Positions 30,484-45,310 of a stretch of 45,310 nt of DNA are shown piece after piece. Source of the DNA: Beijerinckiaceae bacterium (GTDB lineage Bacteria; Pseudomonadota; Alphaproteobacteria; Rhizobiales; Beijerinckiaceae); contig CANGFE010000013.1 in the NCBI GenBank assembly GCA_947453155.1, positions 1-45,310 on the forward strand, read 5' to 3'. Every line of letters begins with the position of its first letter. Within the stretch, counting starts at the first letter, position 1. The position numbers were made by a program, and so were the translations under genes. The notes beneath the pieces were generated by a model, which had not been told where the DNA came from, did no database searches, and was given only the letters and a program-made list of their open reading frames with translations.

Positions 30484-31797
30484 ATGGGAGCTCAGCGGAT
30501 GCGCCAGATGAAGCTTGGTTTGTTTCTGGCGCCAGCTGGGCATCACATGGCAGCCTGGCGCCACCCTGATGCTTATCCGGATGGGTTCAGCGTCAAGACC
30601 TATGCGCGCTTTGCACAAATTGCCGAGCACGGTTTGTTCGATATGCTGTTCGTGGCGGATGTTTTTTCGCTAACGCCGAATGGCAAACGCTCGGACAATT
30701 TTCGTCTCGAGCCGCTCACCTTGCTCTCAGCGCTTGCAATGGTGACAGAACGCATTGGTCTGGTCGCCACAGCCACCACATCTTTCAATGAACCCTATCA
30801 TGTGGCGCGGAAATTTGCCTCGCTTGATCACATCAGTGGTGGGCGGGCCGGATGGAATATCGTGACATCTTCGTCACCGCGTGAAGCGCTGAATTTTGGT
30901 TATGACGCGCATTTTGAACACGCTGAGCGCTATCGTCGGGCTGACGAATTTACACAGGTTGTGCGCGGCCTCTGGGATTGTCTCGATGATGATGCGGTGA
31001 AGATAGATCAGCAAAGTGGGGTCTTTTTCGATTCCGGAAAATTACGCCTGCTCAATCACAGCGGGACTAATTTCAAAGTTGCTGGACCATTATCCTTGCC
31101 GCGCTGTCCGCAAGGCAATCCTGTTTTGGTTCAGGCAGGCTCATCCGAGGATGGCAAAAGTCTGGCTGCGAAATATGCCGAGGTTATTTTTACCATTCAG
31201 CGCGATCTCGCTGCTGCGCAGATTTTCTATCAGGATATCAAGGCGCGCGTGGCGTCTTTCGGTCGCAATCCTGATCATGCGCTTGTCTTGCCTGGCGTCA
31301 TGCCAATTGTGGGGAAGACGAGGCAGGAAGCTCAAGATCGGTATTACGATCTCCAAAGCCTGATCCATCGCGAGGCAGGTCTTGCAACGCTTGGTCGACA
31401 CCTTGGTATGGACCTTTCCGGCGTTGATATTGAAGGACCGTTGCCAGATATAGATCTGACAAAGCTCACGCAGAGCCGCGCGATTGGCATTGTTGAAACC
31501 TCACGGCGTGAAAAGATGAGCGTGCGTGAGACGTGGGAAAAGCTCGTCGTTTCGAAAGGCCATCGCCAGCTGATTGGTGCAGCGACTGATGTGGCCGATT
31601 CATTTCAAGATTGGTTCGAGAACGGCGGCGCCGATGGCTTTAACATTATGCCGCCAATGCTACCCAATGGATTGCAGGATTTTGTCGATCTAGTTGTGCC
31701 AGAACTTCAAAAGCGCGGCTTGTTTCGCAAAGCCTATACGGGCCCGATGCTGCGTGACCATTTGGGATTGCCGCGCCCAGCGCTCTTGTCCCATTGA
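30484..31797 (+). CDS. LLM-class flavin-dependent monooxygenase, NtaA/SnaA/DmoA family
   Basis: A 437-residue protein with the bacterial luciferase-like TIM barrel. Landmarks are L-G-L-F-L-A-P-A-G-H-H-M-A-A-W-R near the start, the insert F-R-L-E-P-L-T-L-L-S-A-L-A, and F-A-S-L-D-H-I-S-G-G-R-A-G-W-N-I-V-T-S. These are typical of nitrilotriacetate, EDTA and dimethyl-sulfide monooxygenases, which need FMNH2 from a separate reductase; none is visible here. Three close in-frame starts exist (30484, 30499, 30508); 30499 has gggag eight bases upstream, so the first residues are uncertain. It ends just before a strong terminator. Substrate unknown. Confidence 0.87.
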   Translation: MGAQRMRQMKLGLFLAPAGHHMAAWRHPDAYPDGFSVKTYARFAQIAEHGLFDMLFVADVFSLTPNGKRSDNFRLEPLTLLSALAMVTERIGLVATATTSFNEPYHVARKFASLDHISGGRAGWNIVTSSSPREALNFGYDAHFEHAERYRRADEFTQVVRGLWDCLDDDAVKIDQQSGVFFDSGKLRLLNHSGTNFKVAGPLSLPRCPQGNPVLVQAGSSEDGKSLAAKYAEVIFTIQRDLAAAQIFYQDIKARVASFGRNPDHALVLPGVMPIVGKTRQEAQDRYYDLQSLIHREAGLATLGRHLGMDLSGVDIEGPLPDIDLTKLTQSRAIGIVETSRREKMSVRETWEKLVVSKGHRQLIGAATDVADSFQDWFENGGADGFNIMPPMLPNGLQDFVDLVVPELQKRGLFRKAYTGPMLRDHLGLPRPALLSH

Positions 31798-35164: not shown

Positions 35165-36154
35165 ATGGCTTCCAACCCTTTTACGCGTCGTGACGTTGCT
35201 GGCCTTTTGGCAGGCGCAGGCCTTGCCTCTGTTGTGCCTGGTGCGCAGGCGCAGGTCGCAGGTGGCGATAAGAACATCACCTTCATCGTGCCGTTTAGCG
35301 CGGGCTCAGGCCCCGACACGATCGGCCGCATCTGTGCGCAATATCTGCAGCAGAAATGGAAGCAGACAATCATCGTCGACAATCGCGTGGGTGCTTCAGG
35401 CAATATTGGGACACAGGCTGTCGCGCGTGCCGCGCCCGATGGGACGACCATGCTGGTCACCGCCAATACTCTGGTGATGAATGTCAGCCTGTTCAAAAAC
35501 GTGCCCTATGATCCGGTCGCCAATTTCGCGCCGGTTGCGGGTCTCGTCTATTCGGTCTTTGCCTGTGCCGTGCACAAGTCGCTTGGCGTGAACACTTTCG
35601 CCGAGCTGGTCGCACTGGCCAAAGCCAAGCCGAATGAAATCAATTTTGGCTCGCCGGGTCCGGGCTCGCCGCATCACATTGCGCTGGAACTTTTCAACCA
35701 GAAGTCCAAGTCGCAATTGCGCCACGTGCCGTATCGTCAGCTTGCTGGCGCCATGCAGGATCTCTCTGGCGGCCATATTGGCGGCATGTTTATGCCGGCC
35801 CTTCAGGCTGTGTCTTTGTCGAAGGGCGGCGATGTGAAAGTGCTCGCTGTCTCAGGTGATAAGCGCATTGCTTTGGCCCCAGACGTACCAACCATGACGG
35901 AAGCAGGCGTGGCTGGCATTGATATCGACAATTGGTGGGCGATCCTCGCACCTGCCGGCACACCTGCTGATGTGGTCGCGAGATATAATACCGACCTCAA
36001 TGCCATGCTGAATGATCCTGAAATCAAGGCGAAACTTGATGCGCAGGCGCTGCAGGTGATTGGCGGTGGGCCTGAGCGTCTGAAAGATATTGTCGCTCGC
36101 GACGTCAAACGCTGGGCCGAGGTCATTCAGGCCGCCGGCATTCAGCCGGAATGA
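35165..36154 (+). CDS. Bug/TctC-type binding protein with Tat signal
   Basis: A 329-residue protein. The signal T-R-R-D-V-A-G-L-L-A-G has the twin arginines of Tat substrates and is cleaved near AQA|Q. The classic Bug pattern follows: I-T-F-I-V-P-F-S-A-G-S-G-P-D-T, V-D-N-R-V-G-A-S-G-N-I-G, and V-P-Y-R-Q-L-A-G-A-M-Q-D-L-S-G-G. It is nearer the textbook Bug/TctC proteins than the longer group at 16-23 kb. It is monocistronic: its own leader, then a perfect terminator 7 bases after the stop. No TctA/TctB genes are present. It could supply the ligand for the catabolic operon that converges on it. Confidence 0.9.
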   Translation: MASNPFTRRDVAGLLAGAGLASVVPGAQAQVAGGDKNITFIVPFSAGSGPDTIGRICAQYLQQKWKQTIIVDNRVGASGNIGTQAVARAAPDGTTMLVTANTLVMNVSLFKNVPYDPVANFAPVAGLVYSVFACAVHKSLGVNTFAELVALAKAKPNEINFGSPGPGSPHHIALELFNQKSKSQLRHVPYRQLAGAMQDLSGGHIGGMFMPALQAVSLSKGGDVKVLAVSGDKRIALAPDVPTMTEAGVAGIDIDNWWAILAPAGTPADVVARYNTDLNAMLNDPEIKAKLDAQALQVIGGGPERLKDIVARDVKRWAEVIQAAGIQPE

Positions 36155-36193: not shown

Positions 36194-37162
36194 TCAGACC
36201 TTCAGGTTCAAAATCCGCTTGGCATTGTCCCAGCAGATTTTCTGCCGCTGTGTCTCATCGATTTTTGCATTCTCAATGAAGTGGCTGGCTTCCGCCGTGC
36301 GCTCAAACGGGTAATCAGCCGAGAACATGACGTTGTCACCGCCCAGAGCACTGAGTGCGCATTGCAGCGGCTCTTCTGAGCAGACGCCCGACGTCGTCAC
36401 CAGGATGTTCTTGCGGATGTAATGGCTCGGCGGCTCTTTCAGTGTGAGACCTTGACGATTGGCAATGGCCCAGCGGCTATCAATGCGCCACAGCTGGAAG
36501 GGAATGGCCTCTCCCATATGGCCAAGAATAATCTTTGCATCAGGATAACGCTCAAAGATGCCAGCCGTGACGATGCGCATGGCATGTGTCGCCGTCTCAA
36601 CACCCCAGCTCCACATCGGGCCCCAAAGCTCGGGGTGGCCGTTGAACATGGACGGGTAATCAACCGGATTATTGGGATGGATATAGACGGGCGCTTTCAA
36701 AGCTGCCGCGCGTTCCCAAAACACTTCGATGCTCGGATCATCGAGATACATGCCATTGGTCGCGCCATTGATCATGACACCGGAGAATCCAAGTTGCGTG
36801 ATGCAGCGCTCGAGTTCGTCAGCTGCTGCTTTGGCATCTTGCACGGCGACATGGGCGAGGCCGCCGTAGCGTTTGGTGTTTTTGGCGACTTCCTTGGCCA
36901 GAAAATCATTCACCTCGCGGGCGCGCTGAACAGCAAGCTTGGTATCTTTTTCAGCCTGCACGCCGGGGCCAGCAAGCCCCAGAATGGCAATCTCAATGCC
37001 ATTCTTGTCCATGTCATCGAGGCGGCGCGCGCCAAAGTCTGATAGAGCACCCAGCGCCTTGTCGGAGAGTTCGGGAGAAATGTTGCCGAAGGTCGTGGCC
37101 CAATAATCGGTGAAATCGGGCGCCATGAAATGTTCTTCCAGCGCAATCTTCTTGATAGACAT
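36194..37162 (-). CDS. Amidohydrolase-2 family decarboxylase, gamma-resorcylate/dihydroxybenzoate decarboxylase-like
   Basis: A 322-residue TIM-barrel metal enzyme. Metal and catalytic positions match gamma-resorcylate decarboxylase: E9-E-H11 (A-L-E-E-H-F), H162 (Y-I-H-P), H215 (L-G-H-M-G-E) and D283 (F-S-A-D-Y-P-F-E), with W-R-I-D after the third. The family decarboxylates hydroxylated aromatic acids or aminocarboxymuconate semialdehyde in the cytoplasm. It is the last gene of the dctPQM operon, with agagga before its start. A hydroxybenzoate-type acid imported by the TRAP transporter is the natural candidate substrate, but non-aromatic acids are not excluded. Confidence 0.83.
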   Translation of the reverse strand: MSIKKIALEEHFMAPDFTDYWATTFGNISPELSDKALGALSDFGARRLDDMDKNGIEIAILGLAGPGVQAEKDTKLAVQRAREVNDFLAKEVAKNTKRYGGLAHVAVQDAKAAADELERCITQLGFSGVMINGATNGMYLDDPSIEVFWERAAALKAPVYIHPNNPVDYPSMFNGHPELWGPMWSWGVETATHAMRIVTAGIFERYPDAKIILGHMGEAIPFQLWRIDSRWAIANRQGLTLKEPPSHYIRKNILVTTSGVCSEEPLQCALSALGGDNVMFSADYPFERTAEASHFIENAKIDETQRQKICWDNAKRILNLKV

Positions 37163-37185
37163 CAGGCGTTCCTCTTGTGATCTGT

Positions 37186-38127
37186 TTATCGCTCAACGCG
37201 ATTTTTGAAATCTTGCAGTCGGCCATCCTGGAAGGCGCGCACATTATGCGCGATCAGCGGCATGATCTGGTCGACATAGCTTTCGCTCTTGCCACCGATA
37301 TGGGGCGTGATGATGACATTGTCCATCGCCCAGAGCGGGCTTGAGGCGGGCAGGGGCTCTTCCACGAATGTGTCGAGACCGGCTCCCGCAATCACTTTGC
37401 GTTGAAGGCGGTCGATGAGCTCGTCTTCCTTCACCACGGGCCCGCGCGCAATATTGATGAAGACGCCGTGACGGGGCATGGCATCGAGCACGGCGCCATC
37501 GATGATCCCTCTCGTTTCCGGCGTCAGCGGCAGGACGGCGATAAGATAATCTGCAAGGCTGGCCGCTTCTTTGAGCTTTTCGCGCGGCATCAGGCGGTCG
37601 AAATGGGGCGCAGATGTGCGCGATGTGATGCCGATGACATTCATGCCAAAGGCTTTGCAGCAGCGCGCCAGATCTTCTGAAATCACACCCACGCCGACAA
37701 TGACGACTGTCTTGTTCCAGAGCAGCCGCTGCGGGCGGCGCTCGAAATTGCAAGTGTCTTGATCGTGCAGAACGGTGCGGATGTCGCGCGCAAAGTTGAG
37801 CATGTAGAGAAAGGCGAGCTCGCTCATTTGCGGTCCATGAATCCCGCGTCCCGAGGTGATCGGGATTTTGGGATCAAGCTCTCTCATCGCTTTGAGCGGA
37901 TCAACGCCGGTGGTGAGCGCCTGAATCCATTGGAGGCCGGTTGCGGCCTTCACCATGGCGGGCGTGATTGATTGCGCGAGACCCATTAGCACTTGGGCAT
38001 CGGCGCAATGGGGCAGAATCTCTGCCTCGGTTTTGCCCGCATGCACAATAACACCGGGCACTTCTGTGCGCAGACGTTCTGCCAGATGTTCGTCAGGTTC
38101 TTCGATGATGGCGATTTGGATGGTCAT
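37186..38127 (-). CDS. D-isomer specific 2-hydroxyacid dehydrogenase
   Basis: A 313-residue NAD(P)-dependent dehydrogenase. The Rossmann loop is V-V-I-V-G-V-G-V-I-S (the final Gly replaced by Ser), and the catalytic triad is R228 (N-I-A-R-G-P), E256/E257 (D-T-F-V-E-E-P) and H276 (I-T-P-H-I-G-G). It interconverts D-2-hydroxy acids and 2-oxo acids. ATG 38127 is one base after the dctM stop, so it is coupled to the transporter genes. The substrate is probably the TRAP-imported acid or its product. Confidence 0.87.
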   Translation of the reverse strand: MTIQIAIIEEPDEHLAERLRTEVPGVIVHAGKTEAEILPHCADAQVLMGLAQSITPAMVKAATGLQWIQALTTGVDPLKAMRELDPKIPITSGRGIHGPQMSELAFLYMLNFARDIRTVLHDQDTCNFERRPQRLLWNKTVVIVGVGVISEDLARCCKAFGMNVIGITSRTSAPHFDRLMPREKLKEAASLADYLIAVLPLTPETRGIIDGAVLDAMPRHGVFINIARGPVVKEDELIDRLQRKVIAGAGLDTFVEEPLPASSPLWAMDNVIITPHIGGKSESYVDQIMPLIAHNVRAFQDGRLQDFKNRVER

Positions 38128-38128
38128 T

Positions 38129-39433
38129 TTATCCGTAAAGTTTCTTGGGCAACCAAAGCGCCAGTTCCGGGAAGATCAGCAGAAGTGCAATCAGCACGAA
38201 AGGCGCAATCAGGAAAGGAATGATGCCACGATAAATGGCGGTCAGTTTCACATCGGGCGCCTGCGCCTGAATGACGAAGAGATTCATGCCGACGGGCGGA
38301 TGAATCAGTCCCAGCTCCACCACGATGACAACGATGATCGAGAACCAGACGGGGTCATAGCCAAACTTTACGACGAGTGGCAGGAAGACGGGCACGGTGA
38401 TCAGCACCATGCCAATGCCTTCGAGGAAGCAGCCGATGATCACATAGGCAATGACAATGATGATCATCACTGTCAGAGCGTTGAGCTGCATGGATTGCGC
38501 GAAGCTCGACAGCAGCACCGGCAATTGGGTTTGTACAATGAAATAGGCAAACAAGGTCGCGCCGATGATGATTACAAAGAGCAGGGCGCTGGTGATGACC
38601 GTACCTTCAATCGCTTTCACCATCTGTCCGACAGTGAGACGGCGCCCGACAAGGCCGAGCAGTATCGCGCCGAAAGCACCAATCGCGGCTGCTTCCGTCG
38701 GCGAAAAGACGCCCGCATAAATGCCACCAATCGTGACGATGAAGAGCAGGAGGAATTGCCAAGGCTGGCGCAAAGCATCCAGTCGCTCTTTCCATGTCAC
38801 ATTGGCAACGGTGGGCGCATATTCAGGGCGCATATGCGCAATGACGAGCGCCACAATGATGTAGATGGTGGTAAGCACAAGGCCGGGGATGAGCGCTGCC
38901 GCGAAAAGTTTTGGTACGCTTTGCTCGGCAATGGCCGCATAGATCACGAGAATAATTGAGGGCGGAATCAGGATGCCCAGACTTCCGCCAGCGGCAATTG
39001 AGCCGGTGGCTAGACCGTCGTCATAACCGGCCTTGCGCATTTCAGGCAGTGCGATCTTGGTCATCGTAGCGGCCGTGGCAACCGATGATCCGGAGACAGC
39101 GCCAAAGCAAGCAGCTGCGCCAATGGCCGCCACCGACAGGCCTCCGCGAATGCCTGACAGAAGCACGCGCGCGGCATTGAACAGATCAGCCGAGAGGCGC
39201 GTGGATGAGGCCACGTCACCCATCAGAATGAAGAGAGGGATAACTGACAGCGTATAGGCAGAGGATGTGTCAAATGCTGTTGTGCCTAGAATGGCGAAGG
39301 AGGAGCTCCAGCCGCCAACAATTGTATTGCCGATCACACCAACGAGCATCAGCGCCGCCCAAACGGGCACGCGCAGGAACAGAAGAAGGAAGAGGGCGAG
39401 GACGCCGCAGGCGCCGATCCATTGATTGCTCAC
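38129..39433 (-). CDS. dctM: TRAP transporter large permease DctM
   Basis: A 434-residue protein with about twelve hydrophobic segments. TRAP signatures: F-G-A-V-S-G-S-S-V-A-T-A-A-T-M, G-S-L-G-I-L-I-P-P-S-I, and G-L-I-H-P-P-V-G-M-N. Together with DctQ it forms the sodium-coupled channel fed by DctP. The GTG at 39433 is chosen because it overlaps the dctQ stop (GTGA) with ggcggag upstream; the longer frame to 39490 is inside dctQ. It precedes the hydroxyacid dehydrogenase by one base. Confidence 0.93.
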   Translation of the reverse strand: MSNQWIGACGVLALFLLLFLRVPVWAALMLVGVIGNTIVGGWSSSFAILGTTAFDTSSAYTLSVIPLFILMGDVASSTRLSADLFNAARVLLSGIRGGLSVAAIGAAACFGAVSGSSVATAATMTKIALPEMRKAGYDDGLATGSIAAGGSLGILIPPSIILVIYAAIAEQSVPKLFAAALIPGLVLTTIYIIVALVIAHMRPEYAPTVANVTWKERLDALRQPWQFLLLFIVTIGGIYAGVFSPTEAAAIGAFGAILLGLVGRRLTVGQMVKAIEGTVITSALLFVIIIGATLFAYFIVQTQLPVLLSSFAQSMQLNALTVMIIIVIAYVIIGCFLEGIGMVLITVPVFLPLVVKFGYDPVWFSIIVVIVVELGLIHPPVGMNLFVIQAQAPDVKLTAIYRGIIPFLIAPFVLIALLLIFPELALWLPKKLYG

Positions 39434-39918
39434 ATCCGTTCTCCGCCATGCGATGTGACAACAGGCTTGGCAAGAGCTCCGAGCGCGCAAAAGAGAGTTC
39501 CGGCCAAGCCAGCAATCGCGAGCGTCCAGAGAATCCAGAGCTTCAAGCCGAGCTCGAGTTTTTTGTCGCCATATTCAAAGGCCTGCGAGGCAGGCTCAAA
39601 CATGGCCCAGATCATCAGGGCGAGCATGCCAATTGTGATGAGATCAGAAAGGCGCACCAGCCCATGGGTGACGCGCAGAGGCACGATATTGTCGATCAGA
39701 TCGATGACAATATTCTGTCGTGCGAGAAAGCAGGATGAGAGGCCGTGGAAAACAAAAATCAGCAGGCTGACTTCTACCACGTCATAAGCGCCGTGGATCG
39801 GGCTTGAAAAAACATAGCGCATGGTGACATCGCAGACGATGATCATCATCATGACGAAGAGTGCGAGCATGGCGAGGCGCAATTGCGCGTTCTTCATAGC
39901 TTCTGCAAAACGCAACAT
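39430..39918 (-). CDS. dctQ: TRAP transporter small permease DctQ
   Basis: A 162-residue protein with four transmembrane helices, as usual for DctQ (L-A-M-L-A-L-F-V-M-M-M-I-I-V, then V-V-E-V-S-L-L-I-F-V-F-H-G-L, and so on). ATG 39918 is preferred over 39951, which lies inside the hairpin after dctP. It links DctP to DctM in the inner membrane and ends overlapping the dctM start. Confidence 0.88.
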   Translation of the reverse strand: MLRFAEAMKNAQLRLAMLALFVMMMIIVCDVTMRYVFSSPIHGAYDVVEVSLLIFVFHGLSSCFLARQNIVIDLIDNIVPLRVTHGLVRLSDLITIGMLALMIWAMFEPASQAFEYGDKKLELGLKLWILWTLAIAGLAGTLFCALGALAKPVVTSHGGERM

Positions 39919-39942
39919 GGCGTGAGCCCTAAAAAGAGAAAA

Positions 39943-39966
39943 GGCCGGCACCTTGGGGCGCCGGCC
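39943..39966 (-). terminator. Attenuating hairpin between dctP and dctQ
   Basis: ggccggc (39943-39949) pairs with gccggcc (39960-39966); on the minus strand the stem is followed by TTTTCTCTTTTT. It probably terminates most dctP transcripts so that the binding protein is made in excess of the permease. Confidence 0.75.
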
Positions 39967-39981
39967 TCGTTCAGATTTGGA

Positions 39982-40992
39982 TTATTTCTGGTAAGCGTCG
40001 AGGAATTTCTTGCCCGGCTTTCCTTCGCTCTCAAGCTTCGAAGATGCCTTTTCGACGATCGGGGCGAGCGTCTTTTGGATATTGGCAAGTTCAGCATCCG
40101 AGAGCTTGGTAATCTCGACCTTCTTGTCGACCATGTACTGACGGCCGTGTTTTTCGCCTTCGTCAAACACTTTGCCGAAAGCTTCCGCGCGCGCAGGGCC
40201 GGTGGTCGTGTCGATCAGCTTCTTCAGATCATCGGGCAGCGACGCATATTTCGCAGGGTTCATAACAACTGCGAAGGTCGCAGTAGAGACACCCGGTTCC
40301 AGAGAATATTTCACAACCGTGCCCAGATCGAAGCTTTGCGTGGCTTCATAGGGGAAGGTCGCGCCATCGATGATGCCCTTTGCGAGACCATCTTGTGTTT
40401 CAGCTGGTGGCACGGGCAGGGGCACAGCGCCCAGCGCTGGAATGATTTGTGCGAATTGTTCACCCGCATAGCGGATGCGAAGGCCCTTGAAGTCGGCGGC
40501 TGTGGCGATCTTCTTGTTGGCCGTGTGGAACATCAACGGATTGGTGACGGCCATCCAGAGAATTTTCAGGCCGTTATGTTCTGCGGCCAGAAATTCTGGT
40601 GCGAGTTCCGTCAGGCGCTTCGATGTGACAGCGCTATTGTCGCCAGCTTTCGGATGCACATAGGGCAGGCTGACGAGTTCTGTTGTGGGGTAACGGCCAG
40701 GAGTTGCGCCATGCAGGCCCACCGCAATATCCGCGACGCCGGAGCGTGCGAGGTCAAACTGGCGGTTCACGGGGCCAAGCTGCGAAGCAGGGAAAATATT
40801 GAGTTTTAGACGGCCACCCGACTTTTCAGTCAGCTCTTCGCCCCAGCGCACGAGTTCTTTCTGGAACGTATGGTTTGGCGGAAGATAATGCGAGACCTTC
40901 AGCTCGACGGTCTGTGCAACAGCAAAAGTGCAGGATGCGATCAGTGCGGCGGACGCGATGCTTCCAGCGAGCGCGCGACGAGTCATGCTCAT
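39982..40992 (-). CDS. dctP: TRAP transporter periplasmic binding protein DctP
   Basis: A 336-residue exported protein. The signal M-S-M-T-R-R-A-L-A-G-S-I is Tat-like, cleaved near AVA|Q. DctP motifs are S-H-Y-L-P-P-N-H-T-F, S-G-G-R-L-K-L-N-I-F-P-A-S-Q-L-G and F-K-G-L-R-I-R. The Arg in the last motif binds the ligand carboxylate in TRAP proteins, so the ligand is a carboxylic acid. ATG 40992 is chosen with ggagga five bases upstream; the frame to 41079 runs through the operator region. It opens the dctPQM-dehydrogenase-decarboxylase operon. Confidence 0.9.
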   Translation of the reverse strand: MSMTRRALAGSIASAALIASCTFAVAQTVELKVSHYLPPNHTFQKELVRWGEELTEKSGGRLKLNIFPASQLGPVNRQFDLARSGVADIAVGLHGATPGRYPTTELVSLPYVHPKAGDNSAVTSKRLTELAPEFLAAEHNGLKILWMAVTNPLMFHTANKKIATAADFKGLRIRYAGEQFAQIIPALGAVPLPVPPAETQDGLAKGIIDGATFPYEATQSFDLGTVVKYSLEPGVSTATFAVVMNPAKYASLPDDLKKLIDTTTGPARAEAFGKVFDEGEKHGRQYMVDKKVEITKLSDAELANIQKTLAPIVEKASSKLESEGKPGKKFLDAYQK

Positions 40993-41049
40993 GGTGTTCC
41001 TCCTTGCTTTCCTCTTCCTGATCGGTCGGAACACTCTTTGGTGCAGCCT

Positions 41050-41088
41050 GTACCGTATCATGGAACTAGAGTACCGCATGGCGATACC
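41050..41088 (-). promoter_or_regulatory. Candidate IclR-type operator upstream of dctP
   Basis: GTACCG occurs at 41050-41055 and again at 41071-41076, 21 bp (two helical turns) apart. The first copy continues into cgtatcatgga (41054-41064), an 11-mer found unchanged upstream of the cyclase gene at 41997-42007. It lies about 60-95 bases before the dctP start, a promoter position. Confidence 0.5.
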
Positions 41089-41139
41089 CGGTCAAGCGGA
41101 CTCGCTTGTCCTTTGCCCCCTCCATTGGTAGGCGGGTGG

Positions 41140-41913
41140 TCAGCGAGAGATGGCGGCCCGGATGCGTTTGCGGAAGGCCTTCAATTGTCTCGATAAATCG
41201 TCCTTCTGCTCAGCGAAGCGCTGAGACGGCACAGGGATAGAGACCGCTACAGGGCGCCCCATCGGGTCGAGCATGGCAATGCCGATGGCGGAGATGCCCT
41301 CGCCATGTTCTTCGAGGTCATAGGCCAAATTGCTCTTGCGGATGTCTTCCAACTCGGCATGCAGTTTCGCGCGGTTTTTCAGCGGAAAATCAGGATGTTC
41401 TGCGAGGCTCTTGTCGATGAGCTCTTCGGCATCTTCGGGTGAGAAACAGGCGAGGATTGCTTTGCCATTGGCTGTGCAGTGCAGCGGAAATCGTTCCCCC
41501 ACAGCCGACACGGCGACCAGGCGATGACGGCCGGGCACTTGATCCACAAAAACAGTCGAGCCACCTGACAGCACAGCCAGATCGACAGTTTCACCAACCT
41601 CTTCGCCAAGCGTGCGAAGATGCGGGCGTATGAGATCTGCCGTGTTGGAGGCAACCGATGCTGCAATGCGAACAAGGCCGGGGCCGATGCGCACATCGCC
41701 GGGACCTGATGCAATCACGAAATCTTCTGCTGCAAGTGCTGCCACGATGCGCTGCACGGTTGAGCGCGCCAAATCGACCGATTTCGCAATCTGGCCAAGG
41801 CTCAATCCATCAGGATGGTTTTCAAGCGTGCGCAAAATGCTCGCCGCTCGCGCAATGACTTGAATGCCGGCTTGCGTGCCGTTCTTTTCTTCAGGATCTT
41901 TGACGTCCTGCAT
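41140..41913 (-). CDS. IclR-family transcriptional regulator
   Basis: A 257-residue regulator. The N-terminal winged helix includes G-L-S-L-G-Q-I-A-K-S-V-D-L-A-R-S-T-V-Q-R-I-V. The C-terminal effector domain carries A-N-G-K-A-I-L-A and the late I-S-A-I-G-I-A-M-L. ATG 41913 is chosen since ggaggag lies five bases upstream; the frame to 41940 translates that ribosome site. The gene lies between the dctP operon and the cyclase operon, with repeats in both flanking regions. IclR proteins often control aromatic or small-acid catabolism, so it is probably the local regulator, responding to the imported acid or an intermediate. Confidence 0.9.
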   Translation of the reverse strand: MQDVKDPEEKNGTQAGIQVIARAASILRTLENHPDGLSLGQIAKSVDLARSTVQRIVAALAAEDFVIASGPGDVRIGPGLVRIAASVASNTADLIRPHLRTLGEEVGETVDLAVLSGGSTVFVDQVPGRHRLVAVSAVGERFPLHCTANGKAILACFSPEDAEELIDKSLAEHPDFPLKNRAKLHAELEDIRKSNLAYDLEEHGEGISAIGIAMLDPMGRPVAVSIPVPSQRFAEQKDDLSRQLKAFRKRIRAAISR

Positions 41914-41982
41914 CCGAACTCCTCCGATCGGCCCTTTCAAATCGCGCGGGAAAAAGCGCGGGACGGCCGATTGACCGCTATA

Positions 41983-42010
41983 TGGTACATGCGTATCGTA
42001 TCATGGACCA
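41983..42010. promoter_or_regulatory. Candidate IclR operator upstream of the cyclase operon
   Basis: Arms TGGTaCATG (41983-41991) and CATGgACCA (42002-42010) form an imperfect inverted repeat with a 10-base centre; 8 of 9 bases per arm match. It includes the cgtatcatgga element shared with the dctP upstream region. It lies between the divergent IclR and cyclase starts and could control both. Confidence 0.55.
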
Positions 42011-42066
42011 CAAAAAATTTGGCGGCAATTCCGCCGTCAGGGATGAAGCGCAAACGGAGGATGACC

Positions 42067-42909
42067 ATGCCCGTGACCATTCGCGGCATTCAGTTCGAGG
42101 GCAACCTCGACAATGCCATGGGACTCGAATTCTACAATCTCTCACATCGCTTTGGTTTTCAGGCGCCCAACTGGCCCTATTTCCAGGACGTGAAGATCGA
42201 GCGCATTCATTACATGGCAAAGTCCGGCGTGTTGTCGCAGCGCATCACCACGTCCATGCATTGCACGACGCATATTGATGCGCCGGCTCACGTTGTGCCC
42301 GGTACACCTTTCATCGATGAAGTGCCGCTGCCGCATTTCTTTGGTTCGGGCATTGTTGTGTCGCTGCCCAAAAAGCAATGGGAATCGATCACTTATGACG
42401 ATCTCGAAAAGGCCGCTGGCAAAGTCGTGCGTCCGGGCGATGTCGTGATTATCAACACCGGCTGGCACAAGATTTACGGCGACAATGAAGATTATTTTGC
42501 CAAGGCGCCGGGTTTCGTGCCGTCCGCTGGCGATTGGTTTGTCGAGAAGAAGGTGAAAGTTGTTGGCCACGATACGCAGGCCAATGATCATCCGCTCGCC
42601 ACCGCCATTGGCCCGCAGCGCAATGGACCTTTGCTGCCGCATCTCGAACAAGAATATTTCGAATGGTCGGGTGGGCGCGATTGGAAGGATGATTTCCCCG
42701 AGTGGGAACCCGTGCATCGCAAGCTTTTCACCAATGGCATTCTCGGCATTGAAAATGTCGGCGGCGATCTCGATGCTGTCACTGGCAAGCGCGTGACTTT
42801 CGCTTTCTTCCCGTGGAATTGGGACAAGGGTGATGGCTGCATCATTCGTCTCGTCGCCATGGTCGACAAGGGCGGCGATTATCGCATCGAACGTGGCGAG
42901 GCTTTCTGA
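42067..42909 (+). CDS. Cyclase/kynurenine-formamidase-like hydrolase (PF04199)
   Basis: A 280-residue metal hydrolase. The family motif appears as M-H-C-T-T-H-I-D-A-P-A-H, with H-x-T-T-H-x-D in place of the usual H-x-G-T-H-x-D. Further motifs are V-V-I-I-N-T-G-W-H and a late G-H-D-T-Q-A-N-D. Known members hydrolyse N-formylkynurenine, isatin and related amides or lactams. ATG 42067 is chosen: ggagg lies six bases upstream; ATG 42061 would leave none. Its stop overlaps the cupin ATG (TGATG). It is the first gene of an operon that appears to carry out a whole degradation. Confidence 0.8.
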   Translation: MPVTIRGIQFEGNLDNAMGLEFYNLSHRFGFQAPNWPYFQDVKIERIHYMAKSGVLSQRITTSMHCTTHIDAPAHVVPGTPFIDEVPLPHFFGSGIVVSLPKKQWESITYDDLEKAAGKVVRPGDVVIINTGWHKIYGDNEDYFAKAPGFVPSAGDWFVEKKVKVVGHDTQANDHPLATAIGPQRNGPLLPHLEQEYFEWSGGRDWKDDFPEWEPVHRKLFTNGILGIENVGGDLDAVTGKRVTFAFFPWNWDKGDGCIIRLVAMVDKGGDYRIERGEAF

Positions 42910-43259
42910 TGCATCTCAAGCGCTTTCAAGATGCGCAACCCTATGACGCCCCTAATCACAGGGGCGTTGTGGGTCTTCGCTTGCAGGGCTTTGAGCCCAA
43001 TGGCCCGACCAATCAATGGATCGGCCTTTCGCAATTCCTGCCCGGCGGTGGCGCCGGTCCGGATTCCACGCCCTTTGAAAAAGTCTATGTCGTCATTGAA
43101 GGCGAGATGACGGTCATCATCGATGGCAAGGAAACAGTGTTGAAGAAATTCGACTCTTGCACCATTGCACCGGGTGAAGTGCGTGTGATCGAAAATCGCA
43201 CCAATCACACTTGCACCATGATGGTCGTCATTCCCTATCCGCCGGGGGTGAAGCCATGA
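42909..43259 (+). CDS. Small single-domain cupin
   Basis: A 116-residue cupin: P-F-E-K-V-Y-V-V-I-E-G-E-M-T-V-I-I-D-G and a second motif A-P-G-E-V-R-V-I-E-N-R-T-N-H-T. The first motif lacks the usual H-x-H (P-F-E-K) while the second keeps N-H, so metal binding is incomplete and the role may be isomerase, ligand binding or an accessory one. It overlaps the genes on both sides (TGATG and ATGA), so its translation is locked to the operon. Function unknown. Confidence 0.8.
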   Translation: MHLKRFQDAQPYDAPNHRGVVGLRLQGFEPNGPTNQWIGLSQFLPGGGAGPDSTPFEKVYVVIEGEMTVIIDGKETVLKKFDSCTIAPGEVRVIENRTNHTCTMMVVIPYPPGVKP

Positions 43260-44056
43260 GTGCAGATTTTCTGAAAAACCCTGCTTCACTCTTCGACGTG
43301 AAGGGCAAGGTGGCTGTCATTACAGGCGCCTCAGGCGCTTTTGGTGCGCTGGCCGCGCAAGTTTTTGCGGGTGCGGGCTGCAAGCTCGTGCTCACGGCTG
43401 GCAAGAAGGCGGAACTCGATCAGATTTCAGCTGATTGCAAAGCGCTTGGCGCAGAAGTTGAAGCGCTCAACGTACGTCCCTCAACGGAAGCCATTTGCGA
43501 TGACATTATCGCAGCAGGCGTGAAGCGTTTTGGCCGCGTCGATATTCTGGTTGTGGCCTCTGGCAAGAATGACGTGTCGAAAATCGACCAGATGGCGCCC
43601 GAGCGTTTTCTCGACGTGATGGATGCCAATGTTACGCAGAGCTGGTTGATGGCCAAAGCTGCCACCAAGCAGATGCTGGTGCAGGGCGGTGGCAAGATCG
43701 TCCTTATGTCGTCGGCTCGCGGACTGCTTGGTCATCCGGCGGGCTATACGGCTTATTGCGCGTCCAAGTCCGCTGTCGATGGCATCACCAAAGCTTTGGG
43801 CTGCGAATTGGGACCGATGGGCATTACGGTCAATGCGATTGCGCCGACCGTGTTTCGTTCGCCGCTTACCGCCTGGATGTTTGCGGATGATGAGAAGGCG
43901 CAGGCCACACGCGCAGGCTTTTTGGCCCGCGTGCCCAAGGGTCGTCTCGGCGAGCCGGAAGACCTGGCGGGTCCGTTGCTCTTCCTCGCCTCGCGTGCGT
44001 CCGATTTCTACACCGGACACATCCTCTACGCCGATGGCGGTTACACTTCAGGCTGA
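43256..44056 (+). CDS. Short-chain dehydrogenase/reductase (SDR)
   Basis: A 266-residue SDR. The cofactor motif is T-G-A-S-G-A-F-G, and the active site is S-S-A-R-G and Y-C-A-S-K, giving the Ser-Tyr-Lys triad. The usual N-N-A-G is replaced by V-A-S-G-K-N. ATG 43256 overlaps the cupin stop (ATGA); the frame to 43211 is not needed. SDRs of this length oxidise or reduce alcohols/ketones; in this operon it probably handles a hydroxyl of the imported acid. It is followed by a second oxidoreductase nine bases later. Confidence 0.88.
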   Translation: MSADFLKNPASLFDVKGKVAVITGASGAFGALAAQVFAGAGCKLVLTAGKKAELDQISADCKALGAEVEALNVRPSTEAICDDIIAAGVKRFGRVDILVVASGKNDVSKIDQMAPERFLDVMDANVTQSWLMAKAATKQMLVQGGGKIVLMSSARGLLGHPAGYTAYCASKSAVDGITKALGCELGPMGITVNAIAPTVFRSPLTAWMFADDEKAQATRAGFLARVPKGRLGEPEDLAGPLLFLASRASDFYTGHILYADGGYTSG

Positions 44057-44065
44057 GGCATAAGC

Positions 44066-44989
44066 ATGAGCGAGCGTGCGAATATTGCAATCATCGGCGC
44101 GGGCCTGATGGGTCATGGTATTGCGCAAGTCTTTGCGCGTGCCGGCCACAAGGTCCGTGTCTATGACGCCTATAAGGCCTCCCTCGACACGCTGCATGCG
44201 CGGATTGAAAGCAATCTGCGTGATTTGGACGAACCGATTGATTGCTTGCCGCTTGTGTCGGGTCATGCCGACATGGCGGAGGCAGTTGCGGGCGCGCAAT
44301 TCATCTTTGAATGCGCACCCGAAAAAGTTGAACTGAAGCGCGAGATTTTCGCCAAGCTTGAAGCGCTGGCGCCCGCAGATGCGGTGCTTGCTTCCAACAC
44401 ATCGGTTATGCCGATTGGCTCGATTGTGGGTGATCTCTCAACACGCTCGCGCATGCTCGGCACACATTGGTGGAACCCGCCTTTTCTTGTGCCGCTGGTT
44501 GAAGTCGTCGGTACGCCAGACACCGAAGTGCGCCACATTGAAAGCATGATCGCGCTGCTGGCTTCTGCTGGCAAAACACCTGTGCGAGTCATGAAAGATG
44601 TCGCTGGCTTTGTGGGCAACCGTTTGCAGCATGCGCTTTGGCGCGAAGCCATTGCGCTGGTGGCCGAAGGCATTTGCGATGCACGCACGGTTGATACGGT
44701 GATCAAAGCGAGCTTTGGTCGGCGTCTCGCGGTTCTGGGACCGCTTGAAAATTCCGATCTTATCGGCACCGAGCTGACGCTTGATATTCACAAGACCATA
44801 ATTCCTGCGCTCGATCACAGCACAGGCCCTAGCCCCTATCTCGATAAGCTGATGACTGAGGGAAAATTCGGCGTGAAATCGGGAGAAGGTTTTATGGCCT
44901 GGACGCCTGACGAAGCCCAGGCTCTGCGCAAGCGTGTTTTCGCGCATCTCAAAAAAGCTTTGGCCGCAGATCGCGGTGAGGGAGCCTAA
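44066..44989 (+). CDS. 3-hydroxyacyl-CoA dehydrogenase family protein (L-carnitine dehydrogenase/lambda-crystallin-like)
   Basis: A 307-residue protein with NAD motif I-I-G-A-G-L-M-G-H-G-I-A, S-N-T-S and the catalytic H134 in G-T-H-W-W-N-P-P, followed by E146. The length fits single-domain short enzymes such as L-carnitine dehydrogenase and L-gulonate 3-dehydrogenase, which oxidise free beta-hydroxy acids rather than acyl-CoA. The next gene, one base after its stop, encodes a BKACE enzyme, which cleaves beta-keto acids. The same pair occurs in carnitine degradation, so the pairing supports oxidation of a beta-hydroxy acid to a beta-keto acid. Confidence 0.85.
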   Translation: MSERANIAIIGAGLMGHGIAQVFARAGHKVRVYDAYKASLDTLHARIESNLRDLDEPIDCLPLVSGHADMAEAVAGAQFIFECAPEKVELKREIFAKLEALAPADAVLASNTSVMPIGSIVGDLSTRSRMLGTHWWNPPFLVPLVEVVGTPDTEVRHIESMIALLASAGKTPVRVMKDVAGFVGNRLQHALWREAIALVAEGICDARTVDTVIKASFGRRLAVLGPLENSDLIGTELTLDIHKTIIPALDHSTGPSPYLDKLMTEGKFGVKSGEGFMAWTPDEAQALRKRVFAHLKKALAADRGEGA

Positions 44990-44990
44990 A

Positions 44991-45310
44991 ATGTCCGACG
45001 CCCTGAAGAAGACCGATCCGTCGAAGAAAGTCATCATCACTTGCGCTGTGACGGGCGGTATTCATACACCGACCATGTCGGATGCTTTGCCGATCACGCC
45101 TGCGCAAATTGCCGAACAGGCCATTGCAGCGGCAGAAGCAGGCGCATCCATTTTGCATCTGCATGCACGTGATCCGAAAGACGGCAAGCCGACACCGGAC
45201 CCGAAAGTGTTTATGGAATTCTTGCCGCGCATCAAGCAGGCAACAGATGCTGTGATTAACATCACCACAGGCGGCGGTCTCAATATGACCGTTGATGATC
45301 GCCTCGCAGC
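44991..45310 (+). CDS. Beta-keto acid cleavage enzyme (BKACE/DUF849), 3' partial
   Basis: The first 106 residues are visible; the gene runs off the window. The start ATG at 44991 lies one base after the previous stop, and gggag sits nine bases upstream. The hallmark H56-L-H58-A-R-D with downstream D-G-K-P-T-P-D is the metal-binding signature of BKACE enzymes such as Kce (3-keto-5-aminohexanoate cleavage enzyme), which use acetyl-CoA to split a beta-keto acid into an acetoacetyl or acyl-CoA product. T-T-G-G-G follows as in the family. It is probably the final step of the operon's route. Confidence 0.85.
   Translation, partial: MSDALKKTDPSKKVIITCAVTGGIHTPTMSDALPITPAQIAEQAIAAAEAGASILHLHARDPKDGKPTPDPKVFMEFLPRIKQATDAVINITTGGGLNMTVDDRLA

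Follow-up and report, generated by a model that had tools for sequence, protein, structure and literature searches.

Which compound is broken down by the two divergent gene groups at the right end of contig CANGFE010000013.1 of a Beijerinckiaceae bacterium? The window analyzed here is that whole contig, 45,310 nucleotides long (C13 of a 2.79-Mb draft genome with an estimated completeness of 83.6%). A sequence-only reading of positions 36194 to 45310 had proposed an undescribed acid-degradation pathway, and open reading frames with Pfam and NCBIfam matches confirmed every gene that it named in its reported place. The minus strand codes for an IclR-family regulator, the tripartite ATP-independent periplasmic (TRAP) transporter proteins DctP, DctQ, and DctM, a D-2-hydroxyacid dehydrogenase, and an amidohydrolase. 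The plus strand codes for a cyclase, a cupin, a short-chain dehydrogenase/reductase (SDR), a 3HCDH-type dehydrogenase (labeled HAD below), and the first 106 residues of a β-keto acid cleavage enzyme (BKACE). The four core steps are read here as the published phloroglucinol route, with a probability of about 0.76 judged from sequence comparison.

The core enzymes

Four phloroglucinol enzymes of Clostridium scatologenes were purified and the route was reconstituted in 2023 (Zhou et al., PMC10470551). Phloroglucinol reductase (CsPGR) is an SDR, dihydrophloroglucinol cyclohydrolase (CsDPGC) is a 'cyclase' family enzyme with Mn2+, triacetate-forming dehydrogenase (CsTfD) is annotated as a 3-hydroxyacyl-CoA dehydrogenase, and triacetate acetoacetate-lyase (CsTAL) is a BKACE (PMC10470551). 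The cluster was reported in diverse bacteria, with marine alphaproteobacteria, Mesorhizobium loti, and Bradyrhizobium among them (PMC10470551). The earlier statement that no characterized pathway has this gene set therefore does not hold. The window resembles the described C. scatologenes pathway in having the four enzyme families side by side, the W-x-Y residues and metal ligands of the cyclase, the catalytic residues of the dehydrogenase, and triacetate as the last intermediate, the latter from the NF053538 assignment of a relative's BKACE. Its plus-strand genes overlap or are spaced by no more than 9 bp, and they very probably form one operon for this reason:

42067-42909, plus strand: cyclase-family hydrolase, proposed dihydrophloroglucinol cyclohydrolase (PF04199, W-P-Y signature, HxxxHxD)
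42909-43259, plus strand: small cupin without the usual metal-binding histidines (PF07883, Cupin_2)
43256-44056, plus strand: SDR, proposed phloroglucinol reductase (best solved relative 5g4k/5g4l, tree split, PTVFRS)
44066-44989, plus strand: 3HCDH-type dehydrogenase, proposed (S)-3-hydroxy-5-oxohexanoate (triacetate-forming) dehydrogenase (PF02737, PF00725, catalytic Ser/His/Asn)
44991-45310, plus strand: BKACE truncated by the contig end, proposed 3,5-dioxohexanoate:acetyl-CoA lyase (partial match to NF053538)

The SDR would convert phloroglucinol to dihydrophloroglucinol, and the Mn-type cyclase-family enzyme would open the ring hydrolytically to give 3-hydroxy-5-oxohexanoate. The 3HCDH-type enzyme would convert this product to triacetate (3,5-dioxohexanoate), and BKACE would turn triacetate and acetyl-CoA into acetoacetate and acetoacetyl-CoA. 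A coenzyme A (CoA) transferase and thiolases coded elsewhere could take both products to acetyl-CoA; the same genome has a CoA-transferase subunit at 264.7 bits versus a cut-off of 128.5 and three thiolases above cut-off. The four reactions were demonstrated in Clostridium only, and the window enzymes presumably perform the same chemistry. A β-hydroxy acid intermediate and the logic of oxidizing and then splitting with acetyl-CoA, both predicted from the DNA, match the enzyme families of the phloroglucinol pathway. The predicted hydrolysable ring or amide bond survives in part: ring hydrolysis is retained, but the bond expected to break is a C-C bond of a cyclic 1,3-diketone rather than an amide or lactone.

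The cyclase signature W20-P-Y22 was present in 114 of the 120 cluster cyclases readable at this site, the window enzyme included (1 of 121 was gapped there). The W and Y pair was found in none of seven outgroup cyclases, one of which had W alone. CsDPGC differs from isatin hydrolase at the substrate site by Trp20 and Tyr22 (PMC10470551). The predicted fold of the window cyclase is nearest isatin hydrolase (PDB 5nna, 4m8d) with a TM score of about 0.6, and the two share the conserved HxxxHxD metal motif; however, they are only 20-22% identical, and the window enzyme has W and Y at the substrate-site residues. The model had a mean predicted local distance difference test (pLDDT) score of 78.6, but the W-P-Y loop (residues 30-37) scored below 50, and the comparison was restricted to the overall fold for this reason.

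The best solved relative of the SDR was 5g4k/5g4l, with 175 bits versus 139 bits for the next protein among 99 solved matches at E <= 1e-25. We take this structure to be the Clostridium phloroglucinol reductase cited in PMC10470551; the entry itself is labeled as an SDR protein. A tree placed 108 cluster SDRs and 5g4l on one side and 10 other SDRs on the opposite side, with a split support of 0.988. The PTVFRS stretch of 5g4l was present in 96 of the 108. In a clostridial cluster (L100), the reductase shares 88% identity with 5g4l and is accompanied by a cyclase, cupin, HAD, and BKACE from the families seen in the window.

The catalytic Ser and Asn were conserved in 94/94 cluster HADs and the catalytic His in 93/94, with one gap. 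CsTfD lacks the CoA-binding residues Lys56 and Asn221 (PMC10470551). The window HAD lacks eight alignment columns that are held by three other 3HCDH-type proteins and the Acetoanaerobium enzyme, and this missing stretch may fit the loss of CoA contacts described for CsTfD. The BKACE fragment matched NF053538, the model for 3,5-dioxohexanoate:acetyl-CoA acetone transferase with a curated cut-off of 430 bits, at 166 bits over 96 of 310 positions, a score that stands for the fragment only. The complete BKACE of the closest relative is 99% identical to the window's across the shared 106 residues and scored 540 bits. The cut-off was passed by seven of nine scanned cluster BKACEs, counting that of the closest relative, and failed by those of Mycobacterium riyadhense and Acetoanaerobium noterae. 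The compound named by this model, 3,5-dioxohexanoate, is the triacetate on which the published lyase acts.

Conservation of the gene set and a shared promoter element

Of 20 loci retrieved from relatives, 17 kept the cyclase-cupin-SDR-HAD order, and this order is not due to chance. One locus, L051, has a DctP-like match between the SDR and the cupin. The remaining three are L039 and L043, which start within HAD at a contig end, and L049, which has HAD only. Fifteen of the 20 loci show BKACE on the side of HAD, with about 5 kb in between in several. By eye, this 5-kb stretch looks like Liv-type ABC transporter genes in L044, L040, and L050; such genes are annotated as Liv-type in the Aminobacter and Pacificitalea clusters, and TRAP and ABC genes are both present in L040.

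A cyclase at least 80% identical to the window's was found in 40 of 150 genomes, the window's own among them. HAD lay within 12 kb of it in 33 of the 40 and on another contig in six; it was not found in G008 among the 51 best HAD matches (39-100% identity) used for this count. BKACE, counted from matches of at least 71% identity and fragments, lay within 12 kb of the cyclase in 21 of the 40. A BKACE of at least 71% identity was present anywhere in the genome in 35 of the 40 genomes with the cyclase versus 3 of the 110 others. BKACE alone is common, because 74 of the 150 genomes have a match at E <= 1e-80.

All five genes were found in at least 54 of 121 cyclase loci, which comprise the window, its relatives, named replicons, and 80 genome_contigs loci; 54 is a lower bound because many loci stop at contig ends. 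Short matches and SDR, HAD, and cupin matches below 37% identity were excluded from this count, including opposite-strand cupins (30-33%, Lachnospiraceae-type clusters). Replicons with the set belong to Aminobacter sp. MSH1, Pacificitalea manganoxidans, Sinorhizobium sp. BG8 (its HAD match carries an internal stop), Novosphingobium pentaromativorans US6-1, Rhizorhabdus wittichii RW1, and the anaerobe A. noterae. M. riyadhense has the cyclase, cupin, SDR, and BKACE, with HAD only as an unannotated HAD-like stretch. The genes of the proposed phloroglucinol pathway are therefore co-located in the window and its relatives, and the scattering that the sequence-only reading had named as evidence against itself was not observed for the core set.

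The two gene groups share a sequence element upstream of dctP and of the cyclase gene:

41050-41065, plus strand: shared element copy 1, GTACCGTATCATGGAA, upstream of dctP (pattern search, aligned in relatives)
41971-41999, plus strand: sigma-70-like promoter of the cyclase operon, TTGACC-17-TATCGT (one found versus 0.4 expected in shuffles; region aligned in relatives)
41984-41997, plus strand: imperfect palindrome GRTAC-N4-GTAYC overlapping the promoter (single exact copy in the window)
41993-42008, plus strand: shared element copy 2, GTATCGTATCATGGAC, upstream of the cyclase gene (pattern search)

The 16-base pattern was derived from the window and its relatives before searching. The form GTAYCGTATCATGGA matched the 2.79-Mb draft genome perfectly at just two places, 41050 (dctP) and 41993 (cyclase). 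A reversed control allowed up to two mismatches gave three matches, equal to the pattern's own count, and the evidence for the element is the two perfect matches and the exact genus-wide search rather than the mismatch-tolerant count. The form GTAYCGTATSATGGAM had 22 copies in 13 of 51 genus genomes, and its reversed control had none in all 51. It was absent from the other 38 genomes, many of which have the cluster. All 22 copies lie within the cluster, two in the window and 20 in fetched cluster loci; the flanking genes were inspected for three short contigs carrying the element. Both sites were present about 940 bases apart in nine genomes, and a single site was present in four. The palindrome GRTAC-N4-GTAYC was found in 21 of 35 upstream regions and was missing from 14.

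The two operons very probably form one regulon, because the 16-base element is at both promoters and its genus copies are only in the cluster. The element would thus mark the regulon. This bears out the earlier proposal of one IclR-linked regulon, for which a lack of co-regulation had been named as the opposing outcome. From its position, the IclR protein is the candidate that would bind the shared sites.

A proposed acid front end and competing explanations

The minus-strand genes face away from the cyclase operon:

36194-37162, minus strand: γ-resorcylate-decarboxylase-like amidohydrolase, proposed 2,4,6-trihydroxybenzoate decarboxylase (PF04909, Amidohydro_2; no NCBIfam match)
37186-38127, minus strand: D-2-hydroxyacid dehydrogenase (PF02826, PF00389; below every NCBIfam cut-off)
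38129-39490, minus strand: TRAP large permease DctM, start probably GTG near 39433 (PF06808, TIGR00786 above cut-off)
39430-39951, minus strand: TRAP small permease DctQ (PF04290)
39982-40992, minus strand: TRAP solute-binding protein DctP (PF03480, NF037995 above cut-off); its open frame extends to 41079 and the start is probably the ATG at 40992
41140-41940, minus strand: IclR-family regulator (PF01614, PF09339)

In the proposed front end of a regulon for growth on phloroglucinol-type acids, TRAP DctPQM would import a trihydroxybenzoate and the amidohydrolase would decarboxylate 2,4,6-trihydroxybenzoate to phloroglucinol. This acid has the 2,6-dihydroxy pattern used by such enzymes, and its decarboxylation would yield phloroglucinol. 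The best solved relatives of the amidohydrolase were the γ-resorcylate decarboxylases 3s4t (244 bits) and 2dvt (224 bits), and 5-carboxyvanillate decarboxylase scored 220 bits. The window enzyme shares the amidohydrolase family with γ-resorcylate decarboxylase (PDB 3s4t/4qro, 2dvt) and its EEHF, HP, GHMGE, and DxPFE stretches align, but loop lengths and sequences differ. The aligned stretches carry the metal and catalytic motifs of this enzyme. Phloroglucinol carboxylic acid is described as an intermediate of catechin degradation by soil bacteria (PMC3877349), and no gene set for it was found in the literature searched. The earlier prediction of a carboxylic substrate is probably right. The core and the acid front end together have about an even chance of being correct; we infer the acid substrate, its decarboxylation, and the binding and ligand of the regulator.

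The window adds the acid decarboxylase, TRAP import, the IclR-linked element, and the cupin to the described C. scatologenes pathway. The main text of PMC10470551, apart from the supplements with gene neighborhoods, does not mention a cupin, IclR, or TRAP and uses 'decarboxylase' only for gallate. Relative to that main text and the literature searched, the new features are the promoter element, the front end with its decarboxylase and TRAP import, a cupin of wide distribution, and the departures in reductase and lyase; the core was very probably already known. The locus offers candidate genes for phloroglucinol-acid import, decarboxylation, and reductive ring opening. A more ambitious and doubtful proposal is that alphaproteobacteria have a pathway specific to 2,4,6-trihydroxybenzoate, the acid of the flavonoid A-ring, with import, a new decarboxylase, an NADPH-independent reductase, a second and separately recruited BKACE lineage as triacetate lyase, and a metal-free cupin as an unrecognized fifth catalyst common to clusters of Clostridia and Proteobacteria alike.

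Several observations weigh against the phloroglucinol assignment or its front end. Identities are modest, at 37% between the window cyclase and the Acetoanaerobium enzyme and 41% between the SDR and 5g4l, and the C. scatologenes proteins, which were not among the returned loci, were compared only via published residues. The SDR split is partly built in, because cluster members were picked at 37% or more identity to the query set and outgroups at less than 36% (a length filter removed 0 of 108). Unlike the published reductase, the window SDR does not have the NADPH motif; the published TR(S/N) was read here as TGR(S/N), and the window has TAGKK versus TGRN in 5g4l. Of the 108 cluster SDRs, 19 carry TAGKK and four carry SAGKK. 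With its motif changed, the window enzyme may differ in cofactor use. The window HAD differs at the GANHP stretch, and the placement of Lys56 and Asn221 in the HAD alignment is uncertain. The BKACE is truncated after 106 residues, a third of the gene, and its remainder was not found elsewhere in the assembly at E <= 1e-80.

CsTAL has Trp in place of Glu14 (PMC10470551), but the equivalent residue of the window BKACE is Ile. Trp was present in 52 of 84 cluster BKACEs, Ile in 31 (the window included), and Met in one. The window BKACE belongs to a different lineage than CsTAL, and the locus draws attention to two BKACE lineages that apparently serve the same step. On the front-end side, a decarboxylase relative lay near the cyclase in 19 of the 121 cyclase loci (window counted), all from the window's genus, and in 0 of the 80 genome_contigs loci; the decarboxylase is thus a local addition. 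One of the 19, L157, is a partial 38% match in a variant cluster. The D-2-hydroxyacid dehydrogenase has no place in the proposed scheme and the cupin no assigned role, and the cupin is missing from some clusters (present in 47 of the 80 genome_contigs loci).

Alternatively, the phloroglucinol core may be right but the TRAP-dehydrogenase-decarboxylase operon may serve another acid and be only co-induced. The left operon is a mosaic, confined in its decarboxylase to the window's genus, in which the decarboxylase is 74-97% identical in some relatives and 46-51% in others. The Liv-type ABC genes of some clusters and the unplaced 2-hydroxyacid dehydrogenase also fit a different acid. The shared element argues for a functional link instead: of the 51 genomes, nine have it at both promoters and four others at a single one. 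Two arrangements also recur in which a decarboxylase-family gene points away from the cyclase operon, at a distance from the cyclase of about 1-2 kb in one and about 4-7 kb in the other. Service to another acid is a possible but lesser explanation of the front end, and its estimate overlaps that for the phloroglucinol core because the core is common to both.

The same chemistry could act on a related ring, such as a phloroglucinol with substituents, an acid resembling orsellinate, or a different cyclic 1,3-diketone, with the decarboxylase acting on 2,6-dihydroxybenzoate or another resorcylate. The decarboxylase scores are alike for the γ-resorcylate and 5-carboxyvanillate enzymes, the SDR departs from the NADPH motif, and a maleylacetate reductase and ring-cleavage dioxygenases are annotated near the cluster in Aminobacter and Rhizorhabdus. 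However, the equivalog model passed by the relative's BKACE is named for 3,5-dioxohexanoate, the product without a substituent. Resorcinol would give 5-oxohexanoate by such a route, which leaves the dehydrogenase and BKACE nothing to act on. A related ring is an unlikely substrate. Carnitine- or betaine-type degradation, or another carboxylate pathway with a dehydrogenase and BKACE, was rejected as highly improbable: these last two enzyme families and their logic are those of L-carnitine degradation, as the sequence-only reading had pointed out, but the window dehydrogenase scored 161 and 115 bits against carnitine-dehydrogenase cut-offs of 592 and 414, the relative's BKACE is the 3,5-dioxohexanoate equivalog, and the SDR and cyclase would be left unexplained.

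The cupin and neighboring genes

The cupin was found in 88 of the 121 cyclase loci and in the clostridial cluster L100. The metal-motif segment was readable in 80 of the 88 cupins (the other eight did not fit the pattern), and none of these 80 had H-x-H; E-x-R-x3-N was present in 84 of 88. By our reading, E-x-R-x3-N sits where a metal-binding His would lie. Tyr12, His17, Tyr60, Arg92, and Asn96 were invariant in 44 aligned cluster cupins from Clostridia to Proteobacteria. The cupin model had a pLDDT of 95.4, and its nearest solved fold was the Mn cupin TM1459. We considered a role like that of Dke1, which we take to be a cupin that cleaves acetylacetone aerobically, and dropped it because the cluster cupin also occurs in Clostridia and lacks H-x-H. 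The published four-enzyme reconstitution includes no cupin (PMC10470551). The locus thus highlights a protein that recurs across many phloroglucinol clusters yet goes unmentioned in the pathway paper's main text.

Phloretin hydrolase (PF18089) was considered as an upstream source of phloroglucinol. This phloretin/DAPG-hydrolase family was above cut-off in 6 of 61 genomes searched (G003, G009, G020, G022, G024, and G036), and the window genome was not among them. Where both occur, the hydrolase is on another contig or distant from the cluster, and no support was drawn from it. Directly after BKACE in the Acetoanaerobium locus (L060 10807-11424), a gene matches PF18089 at 22.1 bits, just below the cut-off of 22.7.

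The gene at 35165-36154, which borders the left operon, was read by eye as a tripartite tricarboxylate transporter (TTT) solute-binding protein gene; copies 96-97% identical are at the same place in L033, L034 (cut), and L036. In the closest relative, the stretch beyond the position of the window's right end (L033 11080-14253) carries an M24 peptidase-family gene along with an additional amidohydrolase and an additional 2-hydroxyacid dehydrogenase. An M24 gene is also present in the left operon of L040. Near the cluster, genes at 30484-31797 of the window and at 15086-16423 of L044 resemble flavin-dependent monooxygenases when read by eye without a family search.

A paralogous cluster was seen in L059 (8153-11526), L156 (1618-6125), L157, L158, L159, and L169 (7181-10941). 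It contains two tandem cyclases, the second with W-P-S rather than W-P-Y, a cupin, a phloroglucinol reductase-like SDR, and HAD; BKACE was not found within the fetched stretch. An α/β hydrolase gene accompanies it in L156 and a fumarylacetoacetase-annotated gene in L059. This two-cyclase cluster could be an all-hydrolytic relative of the pathway.

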